Positions 5,585 through 62,646 of a DNA stretch of 64,000 bases are shown here, one piece after another; positions within the stretch are counted from its first letter, which is position 1; every line of letters begins with the position of its first letter. A program made the translations under genes and the position numbers. A model generated the notes under the pieces. It ran no database searches and had not been told where the DNA came from. It worked only from the letters and a program-made list of their open reading frames with translations. The stretch covers positions 310,001-374,000 of the forward strand of contig JANQON010000006.1 of NCBI GenBank assembly GCA_028289605.1, given 5' to 3'. Source of the stretch: Hyphococcus sp. GTDB lineage: Bacteria > Pseudomonadota > Alphaproteobacteria > Caulobacterales > Parvularculaceae.

Positions 5585-7525
5585 ATGAATGCTGACGATG
5601 CTAACCCAACCATAGAGCCCAGTCCAAGCCCCGACGATCCCCTCACCGGCGCTGCGCTGATCGGCGACTATGTCAAACGGTTGCCGGGCAAGCCGGGCGT
5701 CTATCGCATGATCGGCGAGAGGGACGTTGTCCTCTATGTGGGCAAAGCGAAAAGCCTTAAAGCGCGGGTCGCGTCCTACGCCAAATCGGGCGGTCATTCG
5801 AACCGCATTATGCGGATGATCGCCGAGACGCGGTCCATGGAGTTCGTGGTCACCGGCACCGAGACGGAAGCGCTGCTGCTGGAAGCCAACCTCATCAAAC
5901 AGCTGCGACCGCGATACAATGTGATCCTGCGGGACGATAAGTCTTTTCCCTTTATTCTAGTGGCGGAGGATCACGAAGCGCCGCAGATCCTCAAACACCG
6001 CGGCGCGCAAAAACGAAAGGGCGCCTATTACGGACCGTTCGCGTCAGCCGGCGCGGTCAACCGGACCCTCAACACGTTGCAAAAAGCGTTTCTCCTGCGC
6101 TCGTGTTCCGACAGCGTTTACGAGGCGCGCACCCGCCCTTGTCTGTTACATCAGATCAAGCGGTGCAGCGCGCCCTGCGTCGGTTTGATTTCCATCGAGG
6201 ACTACGCGGCGCTGGTCGACGAAGCGCGCAGTTTCCTCGACGGCAAAAGTGGCGACGTGCAGCGCAAGCTTTCGCAACAGATGGAGCGCGCGGCCGAAGC
6301 GCTCGATTTCGAACAGGCTGGCGCTATCCGCGATCGTATTCGCGCGCTCTCCTATGTTCAGGGGACGCAGGACATCAATGCGGCGACCGTTGGCGAAGCC
6401 GACATCTTCGCGCTTCATGTCGAGGGCGGCCAGGCTTGCGTCCAGGTGTTCTTCTTCCGCGCCGGCCAGAACTGGGGCAACCACGCCTTTTTCCCGCGCC
6501 AAACCCAGGACGCCGAGGCGCCGGAAATTCTGGAGGCGTTCGTGGCTCAGTTTTACGACGGGCGCGACCCGCCGAACGCCGTTTTGACATCTCACGATCT
6601 TCCGCAGACAGACCTTCTGGAAGAGGCGCTCTCGTTAAAGGCGGGACGCAAAGTGACGGTGCGGGCCCCGCGCCGAGGAGAGAAACGCGACCTTGTCGAC
6701 GCCGCCGCCATGAATGCGCGCGAAGCCCTCTCGCGGCGCGTGGCGGAATCGGCGAGCCAGCGCAAGGCGCTCGACGCCCTCGCCGCCGCGCTCGGTCTCG
6801 ATGGGTCGCCCGAGCGGATCGAAGTATACGACAACTCCCATATCCAGGGCGCGAACGCGGTTGGCGCCATGATCGTGGCGGGGCCGGACGGACTGGTCAA
6901 AAACCAGTATCGCAAGTTCAACATCAAAACCGAAAGCCTCAGCCCAGGCGACGACTACGGCATGATGCGCGAAGTCCTCACCCGCCGTTTCTCCCGCATG
7001 TTGAAAGAGGAAAACGCCGAGCGTCCGGACCTCGTCGTGATTGACGGCGGCAAAGGACAGTTGTCGGCCGCGCTCGCGGTTTTCGACGACCTGGGGATCG
7101 ATCCCGAGACTGAGGGCATAGCCGTTATCGGGGTTTCCAAGGCGCGGCGCCTGACCGACGGCGGCGAGAAACGCATAGACCGGACCATGGGAACAGACGC
7201 AGATCAGGTCGTGGCGCCCGGAAAAGACCCGTTCATGTTGCCGCCGCGCGATCAGGCACTGTTTTTGTTGCAGAGGTTGCGGGACGAAGCGCACCGCTTC
7301 GCCATTGGCGCGCACAGGGCCAAGCGCAAAAAGGCGATCAGCGCCAATCCGCTGGACGATATTCCGGGCGTCGGCGCCAAGCGCAAGCGCGCCTTGTTGC
7401 ACCACTTCGGATCCGCCAAGGCCGTCGCGCGCGCCAAACCGGGGGATCTCTCCGCCGTTGACGGCGTTTCAGATGCGCTGGCGCAGACGATTTACGACTT
7501 TTTCCATGGCGACGGTGCGGCTTGA
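5585..7525 (+). CDS. uvrC: Excinuclease ABC subunit C
   Basis: Makes both incisions flanking UvrB-bound DNA lesions in nucleotide excision repair. The 646 residues contain the N-terminal GIY-YIG nuclease (GVY at 38-40, LYVG at 50-53), the Cys-containing central segment, the UVR motif that binds UvrB (around residues 230-256, [14 protein letters not shown]), the RNase H-like 5' nuclease ([20 protein letters not shown]) and a C-terminal helix-hairpin-helix pair ([15 protein letters not shown]). Length and order match the family. I see no convincing GTTC-N7-GTTC box in the 127-base upstream region, so SOS control is not supported here. Confidence 0.97.
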
Positions 7526-55299: not shown

Positions 55300-58200
55300 C
55301 TAGACGAGCTCCACGTCGGCGACCCCCTCCACCCCCTTCAGGGCCCCGCGCATGGCGGGCGTGCACGCGGCGGCCTCAGGCAGGGTAATCTCAACATCCC
55401 TTCCCTTTTCGCCGACCCGCATGGCGATGACGACATCGCCCTTCTCCTGCGGGCTTGCCGGTTTAACCGCCGCCAGGCGGCGGCGAACCCCTTCAAGCGC
55501 CCGTTCCGAGGTGATGGAAATGCGCAACTGCGAAACGGCGGACGCCGCCGCCAGGTCGAGCGCGACCATCCCGTTGCAGGTGAAGCGAATATCCCCGTCC
55601 CCGTCGCGATCCTCCGCCGTGACGTCGGCGAGCACGAGGGCGCCCGGCTCTAACAGGTCGCGGGCGACATTCAGGACTTCGGAAAAGACCGTGACTTCAT
55701 ATTCGCCGCTCGGATCCGATAACTCGATCCAGGCGAAGGGTTTGCCGGATTTCGAGCGGCGCATGCGCACCGCGCGAATGACGCCCGCCATTTTGAGGGC
55801 GTAGGCGCCGGCCTTGGCCCGCTCGACTGCTTCAGCGTATGTGGCGACCCGCAGACGCGCCATCTCCCGCTCATAATCGTCAAGCGGATGACCTGAAAAA
55901 TAAAAGCCGATGGCGGCGCGCTCCTCATCGAGGCGGACCTGCGAGGTAACGTCCTCCACCGACGGCAGACGCGGCTTGTCGAGCGCGGGCGCAGCGTCGA
56001 TGGCGAAAAGCGCGCCCTGATCGCTGGCGCGCTCTTCGGCGGCCTGCGCGGAAAACCGGATCATCAGATCGACGGCGGCGAAGGCTTGCGCCCGCGAAGC
56101 GCACAGACCGTCAAGGGCGCCGGCGCGGGCGAGGTTTTCAAGCGCGCGCTTGCCGACGGATTTCAGGTCAACCCGTTCGGCGAAGTCGAAAAGATCTTTA
56201 AACGGACCGTTCGCACAGCGTTCGTCAGCGATCAGGGCCATCGCCGCCTCGCCCACATTCTTGATGGCGGAAAGGGCGTAGACGACGGCGCCGTTCTCCA
56301 CCGTGAAATCGCTCGAGGAATGATTCACATGGGGCGGTCTGACGTCGACCTCAGACCGGCGGGCTTCTTTCAGAAAGACGGCGAGCTTGTCCGTATTGGC
56401 CCGGTCGAGGGACATGGACGCGGCGAGAAACTCAGCCGGGTGGTTCGCTTTCAGCCACGCCGTCTGATACGCGATATAGGCGTACGCGGCCGCGTGGGAC
56501 TTGTTGAAGCCGTATCCGGCGAATTTCTGGACAAGATCGAAAATCGACGAGGCCTTGGCCCGGTCGACGCCTTTCTCCGCTGCGCCTTCGACAAAACGCA
56601 CGCGTTGCTTGTCCATCTCCTCTTTTTTCTTCTTGCCCATGGCGCGGCGCAAGAGATCGGCCTCACCGAGACTGTATCCGGAAAGGATCTGGGCGATCTG
56701 CATCACCTGTTCCTGATAGATAATGACGCCGTAGGTTTCCTTCAGAACGTCTTCCAGCATCGGATGGAGATAATCCGGATCCTGATCGCCCTGCTTTCGT
56801 TCGATATAGGTCGGAATGTTCTCCATCGGGCCCGGCCGATAGAGGGAAACAAGGGCGATGATATCTTCCAGCGTATCGGGTTTCATCGACCGCAGGACCG
56901 CGCGCATGCCGGCGCTTTCCAGCTGGAACACGCCGGTCGCCGCGCCCTCGCCCAGCATCTCATAGGTTCGCCGGTCGTCGAGCGGCGTTTTGGCCATGTC
57001 GACGTCAAGACCGCGCTTGGCGATGAGGTCAACCGCGCGATCGATCACGGTGAGCGTCTTCAGGCCCAGAAAATCGAACTTCACCAGCCCGGCTGGCTCA
57101 ACCCATTTCATGTTGAACTGGGTCGCCGGCATGTCCGACCGCGGGTCGCGATAGAGCGGCACGAGTTCGTCAAGCGGCCGATCGCCGATCACAACGCCGG
57201 CGGCGTGGGTGGACGCGTGCCGGTAAAGCCCCTCCAGGCGCAGCGCCTTTTCGATCAGGGCGGCAACGGCCTCGTCCTCGTCGCGCTGTTCCTTGAGGCG
57301 CGGCTCGGTCTCCAGCGCTTCGGCGAGCGTGACCGGATTGGCGGGATTATTCGGCACCAGCTTGCAGATCCGATCCACCTGCATGAACGGCATGTTCAGG
57401 ACCCGGCCGACGTCGCGCAGCACCGCGCGCGCCTGCAATTTTCCGAAGGTGATAATCTGAGCAACCCGGTCGCGGCCGTATTTTCCCTGGACGTAACGAA
57501 TGACTTCGTCACGCCGGTCCTGGCAGAAATCGATATCGAAGTCGGGCATCGACACCCGCTCCGGGTTCAGGAACCGTTCAAACAGGAGGCCGAAGCGCAG
57601 GGGATCGAGATCCGTGATGGTGAGCGACCAAGCAACCAGCGATCCGGCGCCGGAACCGCGGCCCGGGCCCACGGGAATACCTTCGGTCTTGGTCCATTTG
57701 ATGAAGTCGGAAACGATCAGAAAATAGCCGGGGAATCCCATGCCGTTGATGATGTCGAGTTCGCGTTTCAACCGCGCCCAGTAGTCGTCCTCCGGCGCGG
57801 CGAGCTCAGTCTCGCGCAGCCGCGCCTTGAGGCCTTCCCGGGCTTGTCGTTCAAGCTCCATGGCCTCCGCCTTGGCGGCGGCGTCCCCCTCTTCGCCGGT
57901 GAAGCTCGGCAGGATCGGATCATGAAAGCGCGGTCGAAAGGCGCAGCGTCTGGCCACTTCAATCGTGTTCTCGATCGCCTCGGGCAGATCCGCGAACAAG
58001 GCGGTCATCTCAGCGGCGGTTTTGAAATAGTGGTCCGGGGTCGCTTTGATGCGGTCGTCCTGATGCACATAGGCGCCCTGGGCGACGCAGAGCAGCGCGT
58101 CATGGGCCTCATAATCGTCAGGGGACGGAAAAAACGGTTCGTTCGCGGCGACAAGGGGCAGATCAAGGGCGTAGGCGAGATCGACGAGCGGCGCCTCGAC

Positions 58201-58755
58201 GCTGTCGCGGGCGCGGTCGCGATGGCGCTGCAATTCGACATAGAGCCGGTTTGGAAAGAGCGCGGACAGGCGCTCCAAAACCGCGCGCGCCTCGCCCTCG
58301 CGATTTTCCCGCAGCAGGCGGTCGACCGGACCGTCATACCCGCCGGTGAGACAGATGAGGCCGTCGCTTGCGCCGCCCAACCAGTCGACTGCGGCGCACG
58401 CCCCCTCCTCGGCCGCCGAATTCAGGAACGCGTCGCTGGTGATTTTCAGGAGGTTTTTGTACCCGGCCTCGTTTTGGGCGAGGAGAACCAACGCCGGGTG
58501 GCGCGCGCCGCGCGCCAGAGGCAGGCCGAAATCCGCCGCGGCGAAGGTCTGATGGAGACCGATAATCGGCTGGATCCCGGCGGCGGCGAGACTGGTGGAC
58601 ACCTCCAGGGCGCCGAACAGGTTATTGGTGTCGGTCACCGCCGCCGCGGGCATGCCGGAGCGCTTGCATAGATCCGGAAGATCCCCCACCCGGATCGCCC
58701 CCTCTGACAGCGAATAGGCCGAGTGCAAATGCAGATGGACAAAGCCGGCGGTCAT
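55300..58755 (-). CDS. dnaE: DNA polymerase III subunit alpha
   Basis: The replicative polymerase, 1151 residues. The N-terminal PHP domain starts VHLHLHSAYSLSEGAIRVG; the polymerase active site aspartates are in PDFDIDFCQDRRDEV; further motifs are YQEQVMQIAQ, GYGFNKSHAAAYAYIAYQ and the C-terminal OB-fold (GVIRAVRMRRSKSGKPFAW). GGGAG precedes the ATG. It is transcribed away from the small SOS-box ORF 64 bases upstream in the same direction, and ahead of rpsB. Confidence 0.97.
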   Translation of the reverse strand: MTAGFVHLHLHSAYSLSEGAIRVGDLPDLCKRSGMPAAAVTDTNNLFGALEVSTSLAAAGIQPIIGLHQTFAAADFGLPLARGARHPALVLLAQNEAGYKNLLKITSDAFLNSAAEEGACAAVDWLGGASDGLICLTGGYDGPVDRLLRENREGEARAVLERLSALFPNRLYVELQRHRDRARDSVEAPLVDLAYALDLPLVAANEPFFPSPDDYEAHDALLCVAQGAYVHQDDRIKATPDHYFKTAAEMTALFADLPEAIENTIEVARRCAFRPRFHDPILPSFTGEEGDAAAKAEAMELERQAREGLKARLRETELAAPEDDYWARLKRELDIINGMGFPGYFLIVSDFIKWTKTEGIPVGPGRGSGAGSLVAWSLTITDLDPLRFGLLFERFLNPERVSMPDFDIDFCQDRRDEVIRYVQGKYGRDRVAQIITFGKLQARAVLRDVGRVLNMPFMQVDRICKLVPNNPANPVTLAEALETEPRLKEQRDEDEAVAALIEKALRLEGLYRHASTHAAGVVIGDRPLDELVPLYRDPRSDMPATQFNMKWVEPAGLVKFDFLGLKTLTVIDRAVDLIAKRGLDVDMAKTPLDDRRTYEMLGEGAATGVFQLESAGMRAVLRSMKPDTLEDIIALVSLYRPGPMENIPTYIERKQGDQDPDYLHPMLEDVLKETYGVIIYQEQVMQIAQILSGYSLGEADLLRRAMGKKKKEEMDKQRVRFVEGAAEKGVDRAKASSIFDLVQKFAGYGFNKSHAAAYAYIAYQTAWLKANHPAEFLAASMSLDRANTDKLAVFLKEARRSEVDVRPPHVNHSSSDFTVENGAVVYALSAIKNVGEAAMALIADERCANGPFKDLFDFAERVDLKSVGKRALENLARAGALDGLCASRAQAFAAVDLMIRFSAQAAEERASDQGALFAIDAAPALDKPRLPSVEDVTSQVRLDEERAAIGFYFSGHPLDDYEREMARLRVATYAEAVERAKAGAYALKMAGVIRAVRMRRSKSGKPFAWIELSDPSGEYEVTVFSEVLNVARDLLEPGALVLADVTAEDRDGDGDIRFTCNGMVALDLAAASAVSQLRISITSERALEGVRRRLAAVKPASPQEKGDVVIAMRVGEKGRDVEITLPEAAACTPAMRGALKGVEGVADVELV

Positions 58756-58819: not shown

Positions 58820-58915
58820 TTACGCCCCCAAAAGCGCGCCCCAGATCTGCGTCGCGCTAAGCACGACCAGAAGTACGCCGAGTCCGATGACGTCGCGCAA
58901 GGCCTCGTTTTCCAT
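58820..58915 (-). CDS. 31-residue SOS-regulated membrane peptide (SidA-like candidate)
   Basis: A short ORF reading MENEALRDVIGLGVLLVVLS then ATQIWGALLGA: a short polar N-terminus and one transmembrane helix. AGGAGA lies seven bases before the ATG, and a LexA-type box (58946-58960) lies 31 bases upstream. Caulobacter SidA is a 29-residue SOS-induced inner-membrane peptide that blocks division through FtsW/FtsN, and I recall its gene also lies next to dnaE. Size, topology, control and location agree, but sequence homology is not demonstrated. Confidence 0.65.
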   Translation of the reverse strand: MENEALRDVIGLGVLLVVLSATQIWGALLGA

Positions 58916-59461
58916 AGGGTTTCTCCTCTCTCCAGATTAGTCGATGTTCATATTTTGTTCTATATTCCCTTTTTGTTCTCAAGTCGAGTCATTTGTCGGG
59001 CCGTTTTCTGCGGCGCCGCCGCGCATCCCCGACCAGGCGGCGCAGGCTTCGTCAAAAAAAAGTTTCGGGGATCCAAGGCCGTCCATTGAACGCACGCGCA
59101 AAGCTCGGAGCGCAGCCGCCCGCGGATCTCCGAATTCTGCAGAAACGGCGCCCGATTTGTCAGTTTAATCCAATCTCATAATCGAAGCCGTCCGCTGGCA
59201 GAGCGAAGCAGACCGTTGGCAGACTGCCTGATGAGCCGCGCGATGAATCCATCGACAAATTCGGTGTCGGGCGCGGTCTCGGTTGCCGTTTTCGCTCTCG
59301 CACGACGCCGACAATTGCAGTGCTGACGAGCCTGGCCCTTAAACGAAGCAAGCGCGGCGAGCGCATGCGCTCGGCTCCGGGCGACGACAATTCGCTGTCG
59401 GACGATCTGTTTTCATGGGTCGGCGCGGAACAAAGCGGCCGGCGCGGAGGAAAGACGGAAG
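58916..59461. other. Regulatory gap between the small SOS ORF and the receiver gene
   Basis: About 545 bases. The part next to the small ORF holds the LexA-type box and AT-rich promoter sequence. Longer open frames (58757-59089 on the + strand, for instance) are shadows or low-complexity and lack a start context. I see no other gene or RNA here. Confidence 0.5.
58946..58960 (-). promoter_or_regulatory. LexA (SOS) box GTTC-N7-GTTC
   Basis: GTTCATATTTTGTTC, which reads GAACAAAATATGAAC on the minus strand; this is the alphaproteobacterial LexA motif GTTC-N7-GTTC. A third GTTC is at 58975-58978. The box overlaps the AT-rich promoter region of the 31-residue ORF, so LexA would repress it until DNA damage. 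Confidence 0.7.
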
Positions 59462-59992
59462 ATGGACTTGGAAAGGACGCCGGATGGGCGAAAACCTATG
59501 AGCGAGGAGCAAAATCAAAACAGCGCGGCGCCAGCCGACGCAGCGCCGTTTACGGTTCTGATTGTCGGCGGCAGTCCGGAAAACGTGCGCACCCTGAAGT
59601 CACTGATGATGACCTATGTCGTCCAGGTGCTGATCGCCCGGGACAGTTACGAGACCCTGGCCATGCTCAAAAGGGTGCGCAAAAAAGACGTCATGCGTAT
59701 CGATCTCGTGCTGATCGACGTCACGCTGACCCCGTCCCAAGACTTGCGCACGGCCCAAGGCCTTCAGATCGCCAAGGAGATTCGCGCGAACGAACGCGCG
59801 GCGGGCGCAAGCCCCGCATCCATCATCGCCGTCACGTCGCCGATACAACCGGTGGACCAGCATATCTGCATGGCGGCCGGCATGAACGATTACCTGTACA
59901 AACCGGTCAACGACGAGTCCCTCAGGCGGTTGTTAAAGATCTGGGCGCCGGGCTTGCCCTTTGCGCGGCCCAATCGCAGTGCAAGCGGTTAG
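59462..59992 (+). CDS. Receiver-domain protein with degenerate acidic pocket
   Basis: A 176-residue protein with an N-terminal polar stretch (about 30 residues) and one receiver fold. The phosphoacceptor Asp86 in LVLIDVTL, the Thr/Ser in IIAVTS and the Lys in DYLYKPV are kept. The two acidic residues that bind Mg2+ in typical receivers (IVDDDPEN) are replaced by glycines (IVGGSPEN, Gly36-Gly37), so phosphorylation is doubtful. No output domain. The start may also be the ATG 12 codons later. Confidence 0.83.
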   Translation: MDLERTPDGRKPMSEEQNQNSAAPADAAPFTVLIVGGSPENVRTLKSLMMTYVVQVLIARDSYETLAMLKRVRKKDVMRIDLVLIDVTLTPSQDLRTAQGLQIAKEIRANERAAGASPASIIAVTSPIQPVDQHICMAAGMNDYLYKPVNDESLRRLLKIWAPGLPFARPNRSASG

Positions 59993-62503: not shown

Positions 62504-62646
62504 AGAACGTGTCTTGGCGCAGCCCCGCTATTCCCTTCGCAGGTTTCACGCCCCCGGCAAACCCCTCCGCCCTACGCCAGACGTGATTTGCCGTTTTGCG
62601 TTGCAGCATTTAGGAAACCGCCATGCAGCATGAAAGGACGCGCCCC

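Follow-up and report, generated by a model that had tools for sequence, protein, structure and literature searches.

A probable SidA-type membrane micropeptide under LexA boxes ahead of dnaE in Parvularculaceae, with candidate relatives across Alphaproteobacteria

In Caulobacter, SidA is described as a 29-aa inner-membrane inhibitor that interacts with FtsW and, in a two-hybrid assay, with FtsN (PMC4211646), in agreement with what a sequence-only reading of the locus studied here had stated about this division inhibitor. Mutations in FtsW or FtsI relieve the effect of SidA, the suppressor changes in FtsW being A31K, F145L, and A246T, and the authors propose a stabilised inactive state of FtsW/I/N (PMC4211646). 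The same article describes DidA, a second Caulobacter protein that has one helix, is induced by damage, and inhibits division through the FtsW/I/N complex, but DidA has 71 residues, is SOS-independent and induced by DriD, and interacts with FtsN (PMC4211646). Further away, YneA of Bacillus subtilis and SosA of Staphylococcus aureus are reported as SOS-induced division inhibitors, YneA interacting with FtsW (PMC13396833, PMC6851548); their hosts, however, are Gram-positive, and the likeness drawn here to the peptide presented below is one of description. In the literature found, detailed knowledge of a peptide that stops division after DNA damage comes, among alphaproteobacteria, from Caulobacter only. 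None of the open-licence papers found states that sidA occurs outside Caulobacter or that it is linked to dnaE.

Here we analyzed a window of 64,000 nucleotides from Hyphococcus sp. (contig JANQON010000006.1, positions 310,001 to 374,000). On its minus strand, an open reading frame at 58820..58915, stop codon counted, encodes the 31-residue peptide MENEALRDVIGLGVLLVVLSATQIWGALLGA, and a Shine-Dalgarno sequence, AGGAG, is found at 58923..58927 on the same strand, 7 nt ahead of the ATG. A translated search of 60 relatives found the peptide in 24 of the 28 genomes of the window's genus (Marinicaulis-type Parvularculaceae; E <= 7.8e-9), with a length of 31 residues in all 24 copies. The remaining four gave no usable sequence upstream of dnaE, three having no dnaE match and the fourth a contig end inside dnaE. 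Across the 24 copies, pN/pS is 0.27 in the peptide frame, whereas the two alternative frames give 0.90 and 2.83. The ORF is a real gene, with amino acids under purifying selection in its own frame only. AlphaFold2 predicts a single helix spanning residues 2-29 (mean pLDDT 95.3), and the hydrophobicity of this helix suggests that the peptide inserts into the membrane. The sequence-only reading had described a 31-codon ORF with a good Shine-Dalgarno sequence and one transmembrane helix; the ORF, the ribosome site, and the single helix hold, and the membrane location is what hydrophobicity suggests. Pfam and PADLOC gave no match for the window peptide, and PHROGs gave none for it and two weak ones for its relatives. 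A weak resemblance to the peptide of family f7 was seen for one PHROG, phrog_11446 (E 0.049), a phage family of 34 positions with no known function.

The main LexA box, GTTCATATTTTGTTC, lies at 58946..58960, 30 bases from the ATG (GAACAAAATATGAAC in gene orientation, minus strand). It is present as an exact GAACN7GAAC at all 23 genus loci with enough upstream sequence, one further locus (L012) beginning 24 bp ahead of the ATG. A second box with one mismatch, GAACAAAAAGGGAAT in gene orientation (58964..58978, minus strand), is set 18 bp further upstream. Among 26 aligned loci, each letter of its GAAC is retained in 25, and the letters of its GAAT are retained in 25, 25, 26, and 26. The GTTC-N7-GTTC box of the sequence-only reading is therefore the main box, and the third GTTC that it had pointed out is located at 58975..58978, as half of the second box. 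That reading had also set conservation of the ORF and the box in relatives as a matter to be checked, and both turned out to be conserved. When named genomes were scanned for the box plus a start, 40 named contigs matched. The peptide is carried by 22 of them (records of Marinicaulis, Parvularcula, Parvularculaceae, and unclassified alphaproteobacteria, one being cut at a contig end), and the third GAAC is present in 22/22 of these versus 0/18 of the others. A one-mismatch box was found 16-26 bp above the exact one at 12 of the 15 loci tested for tandem boxes. Tandem pairs of this kind, often with an upper box ending in GAAT, are present at L025, L027, L031, L033-L035, L037-L039, and L120-L122. 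Similar boxes occur in other genera of the window's family, and several loci of the genus g18, discussed below, have two one-mismatch boxes 17-18 bp apart.

The conserved columns over 26 loci suggest a promoter whose two elements are 17 bp apart, composed of a likely -10 element, TATAGA (58959..58964, minus strand), which overlaps the LexA boxes, and a likely -35 element, TCGACT (58982..58987, minus strand), whose equivalents in relatives are TTGCCA, TGGACA, and similar sequences. TATAGA lies at the junction of the two LexA boxes, so bound LexA would directly obstruct RNA polymerase. A simple promoter and terminator scan of the window locus returned no promoter, and no terminator-like site between the peptide gene and dnaE.

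The SOS box of Caulobacter is GTTCN7GTTC (PMC9578287), which fits the earlier identification of the motif as the alphaproteobacterial LexA site. In the window's genome, the same motif precedes lexA (its own box, L130), uvrA, an ImuA-like/Y-polymerase pair, and a DNA glycosylase gene. The last three were recognised among 12 sites picked by eye from 130 exact matches, so they show the motif in use, not how often. At the nine other sites of these 12, no SOS gene was recognised, and the one that was searched against families is a glycosyltransferase. At the glycosylase site (L132, G000:C14:155718), the HhH-GPD ORF begins 42 bases downstream of the first box base, and it is likely an SOS gene. Box counts were not accepted as evidence by themselves, since they do not exceed chance either in the window (4 exact matches versus 2.55 expected) or in the whole genome (66+64 versus 69+48 for the backwards pattern). 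The weight for the locus comes instead from conservation, from purifying selection in a single frame, and from the occurrence of the same motif ahead of other SOS genes. A separate observation concerns Roseobacter/Rhodobacteraceae-type loci (L145, L163, L164, L170, L176, and L181), where a 207-241-aa ORF starting with MENDS follows a LexA box after a fixed 14-base gap; it may be ImuA, given the impB/mucB domain in the stretch near the L145 ORF.

The genus g18 is presumably Caulobacter, an assignment whose basis includes the SidA match itself. We found dnaE in 71 of its 75 genomes and examined the upstream sequence at 44 of these loci, 42 of which have at least 250 bp. Directly before dnaE, a peptide of 29-30 residues is present at 42/42, preceded by a box that is exact in 25 cases (0 of 708 control windows) and has at most one mismatch in every case (10 of 708 control windows). 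The one g18 peptide scanned matches the NCBIfam model NF033228.1, "cell division inhibitor SidA", with 72.3 bits against a cut-off of 35. SidA itself thus precedes dnaE, which bears out the adjacency proposed in the sequence-only reading. Peptides of two other genera also score above the cut-off of this model (g17, 44.3 bits; g20, 47.6 bits), and that of g11 scores below it (23.5 bits).

Similar peptides were found through most of the order, here divided into families f1, which is the window's own, to f5, with g18 in f3. Within f1, the genera g2 and g3 have the peptide and an exact box at 11/11 loci. The genera g4-g7 have the peptide at 15/15 loci, these loci having been located by the peptide itself, with an exact box at 12, a one-mismatch box at two, and none within 120 bp at one (L036). 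In f5, the peptide is present at all 13 loci, with nine exact boxes and four with one mismatch, and in f3 outside g18 at all five. It is present at three of eight loci in f4, the other five having no such peptide, and at 0/5 loci in f2 with the sequence upstream of dnaE examined, so its presence in the order is wide but not universal. The calls at L018, L027, L033, L121, L086, L093, and L109 were settled by eye.

Outside the order, 112 genomes of the class have dnaE, and 70 loci, including the window's own, were examined. An exact box in gene orientation lies within 450 bp of dnaE at 15 of the 69 other loci and is absent from 54. All 15 have, in addition, a ribosome site and a short hydrophobic ORF whose start is 28-60 bp downstream of the first box base. 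At 6/69 loci the motif points the other way, the backwards-motif controls gave 1 and 1, and two loci have such an ORF and no box. A profile built from the order only ranks 12 of the 15 outside peptides, from 10 families, above all 138 true decoys (three of the initial 141 were dropped, having turned out to be genuine members of the family). We also searched 290 alphaproteobacterial whole genomes with a profile, blind to position. Each of the 16 places with E <= 0.0012 combines an exact box with a dnaE gene that lies 54-268 bp downstream. Eight of them had supplied query rows; among the other eight, one peptide repeats a row exactly, and the remaining seven come from a genus or family that also supplied a row. 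Of the 11 weaker places, two show both a box and dnaE, a third has its box at the end of a contig, L278 has a box with one mismatch and no dnaE, and the last seven lack both. The search upstream of dnaE for a small ORF with a LexA box, which the sequence-only reading had put forward, was thereby carried through, and such ORFs were found in the genus, in the order, and in some families beyond. Our best reading of this distribution is that the SidA-type peptide family is probably older than its order.

How the window peptide relates to SidA is less direct. The two share a size of 29-31 residues, one hydrophobic helix, a LexA box, and a position directly before dnaE on the same strand, but direct sequence similarity is undetectable. 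The window peptide gave no NCBIfam family, NF033228.1 included, at E up to 1, and none of the f1, f4, f5, and non-order peptides tried matched NF033228.1. Direct profile matching between SidA and the window peptide failed both ways: with a profile of the SidA clade (f3), 95 of the 138 decoys score at least as well as the window peptide, and with an f1 profile, none of the 36 f3 peptides rises above all decoys. Comparison of the f1 and f3 profiles by hhalign gave a probability of 0.14%, with 74 of 100 column permutations as good. This lack of a direct f1-f3 match would be expected if small membrane peptides had arisen repeatedly beside dnaE under LexA, so that those of presumed Caulobacter and of Parvularculaceae were not homologous. 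We nevertheless regard such repeated origin as unlikely: position, box, length, and orientation are in common, the 23 order peptides have an acidic residue in the same alignment column, and the families can be joined through an intermediate. The profile links between f1 and f5 (90% probability) and between f5 and f3 (95.6%) both rank above all 100 column permutations. Moreover, the f5 profile places 36/36 f3 peptides above all decoys. A profile built from everything except f1 places the window peptide above 137 of the 138 decoys; 4/138 decoys score at least as high as this peptide with the f5 profile alone, and 18/138 with a pooled f3 and f5 profile. The motif [DE]xx[AGST][LFAGMI] occurs in 22/22 order representatives and 8/12 outside ones, counts that shuffles reach in 0 and 17 of 2000, and the stricter [KR][DE]xx[AG][LF] in 10/22 and 4/12, which 0/2000 shuffles reach; these counts lean in favour of a relationship, as the patterns were chosen after viewing the peptides and the 34 representatives, about one per genus, were picked by hand. 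Taken together, the data support a tie between the window peptide and SidA that runs through intermediate families, position, LexA boxes, size, and topology, and not through a direct sequence match. The proposal of a positional homologue of SidA outside Caulobacter stands in that form. We consider it likely that the peptide is a diverged SidA-type, LexA-repressed one-helix division inhibitor and the positional counterpart of Caulobacter SidA; the sequences also support a family wider than the annotators' SidA model.

An FtsW-family protein is present in the window's genome. At positions 31, 145, and 246, where the SidA suppressors map, it has V, M, and A versus A, F, and A in g18, which speaks against a mode of action identical to that of SidA, and since two of these three residues differ here, FtsW is a putative target. 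In Marinicaulis flavus (G022), FtsW has I, M, and T at these positions, the native T being the A246T change that makes Caulobacter insensitive to SidA. As a guess, the peptide and FtsW may have drifted together. FtsW of the window's genome (L256) and of G022 (L258) was also seen to be without the GPGEG loop present in L253-L255 and L257.

TisB and DinQ of Escherichia coli are other very small SOS-induced membrane peptides; both are toxins with antisense or regulatory RNAs, their LexA box differs, and they are not known to lie beside dnaE. A membrane-depolarising toxin of this sort, induced by the SOS response to slow growth or promote persistence with no binding to the divisome, would match the window peptide in size, single helix, and LexA box, and DinQ is an example of this sort (PMC3567139). 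We find this identity improbable, as no Rfam family exceeds its cut-off at the locus (only a tRNA elsewhere, in a search that covers described RNA families), the distance from the boxes to the start is short with an evident ribosome site, and the positional counterpart in presumed Caulobacter is a divisome inhibitor.

The gene downstream of the peptide, dnaE, encodes the DNA polymerase III alpha subunit (55300..58755, minus strand; NCBIfam, 1453.6 bits) and begins 64 bp after it. On the other side, a response-regulator receiver-domain protein is encoded at 59462..59992 on the plus strand, divergent from the peptide gene across about 0.5 kb. At 27 of 28 homologous loci, dnaE lies downstream of the peptide. 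The exception is Parvularcula sp. BBD 1991-13 (L021/L165), which keeps the peptide and the exact box but shows no dnaE over the following 2.2 kb. In its L165 record, the peptide and a triple half-site are near 5682-5812 with no dnaE match in the 8 kb examined, and the SDR-like and patatin-like neighbours resemble, by eye, the window genes at 62623 and 63430. L278 (G483) likewise has, near 1375-1585, a peptide that resembles the family and has a LexA box with one mismatch but no dnaE; it lies after an ABC-transporter gene (LolD-like by look) and ahead of a histidine-kinase-like gene. Both are single draft-contig cases, so misassembly is possible. These loci bear on whether the peptide is an inert leader whose SOS-controlled translation tunes dnaE expression, and although leader peptides exist in Caulobacter (PMC4117421), the peptide lies 4-270 bp ahead of dnaE on the same strand at loci with both, and the window's intergenic stretch has no terminator-like site, we judge this very unlikely, because the peptide and its box persist without dnaE or before another gene in these drafts, its amino acids are under purifying selection, its gap to dnaE varies widely, and its presumed Caulobacter counterpart, SidA, is a protein with its own activity (PMC4211646).

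For a SidA-type division inhibitor, the locus suggests the following course. LexA would bind the tandem pair of GAAC-N7-GAAC-type boxes that covers the promoter, and the peptide gene would stay silent. Upon DNA damage, RecA would become active and LexA be cleaved, allowing a short transcript to be made that carries a good ribosome site. The peptide would then enter the inner membrane and, by analogy with SidA, hold the late divisome proteins FtsW/FtsI/FtsN inactive until repair.

From a broader perspective, we think it reasonably probable that these peptides represent an old alphaproteobacterial checkpoint, in which a LexA-repressed micropeptide of about 25-47 residues precedes dnaE in four of the five sampled families of the order and in at least 10 outside it, keeping only a short acidic-helix signature while its sequence drifts with the FtsW of the host, and of which SidA would be the tip visible to current models. 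If true, division arrest and the replicative polymerase would belong to a single unit that responds to damage, given how often the peptide gene is linked to dnaE. The peptide is missed by NCBI and Pfam models but can be picked out by its position and LexA box, which gives testable candidates across the class, and natural peptide-FtsW pairs are offered for interaction mapping. It would also be an example of a protein family that is recognisable mainly by synteny, regulation, and intermediates.
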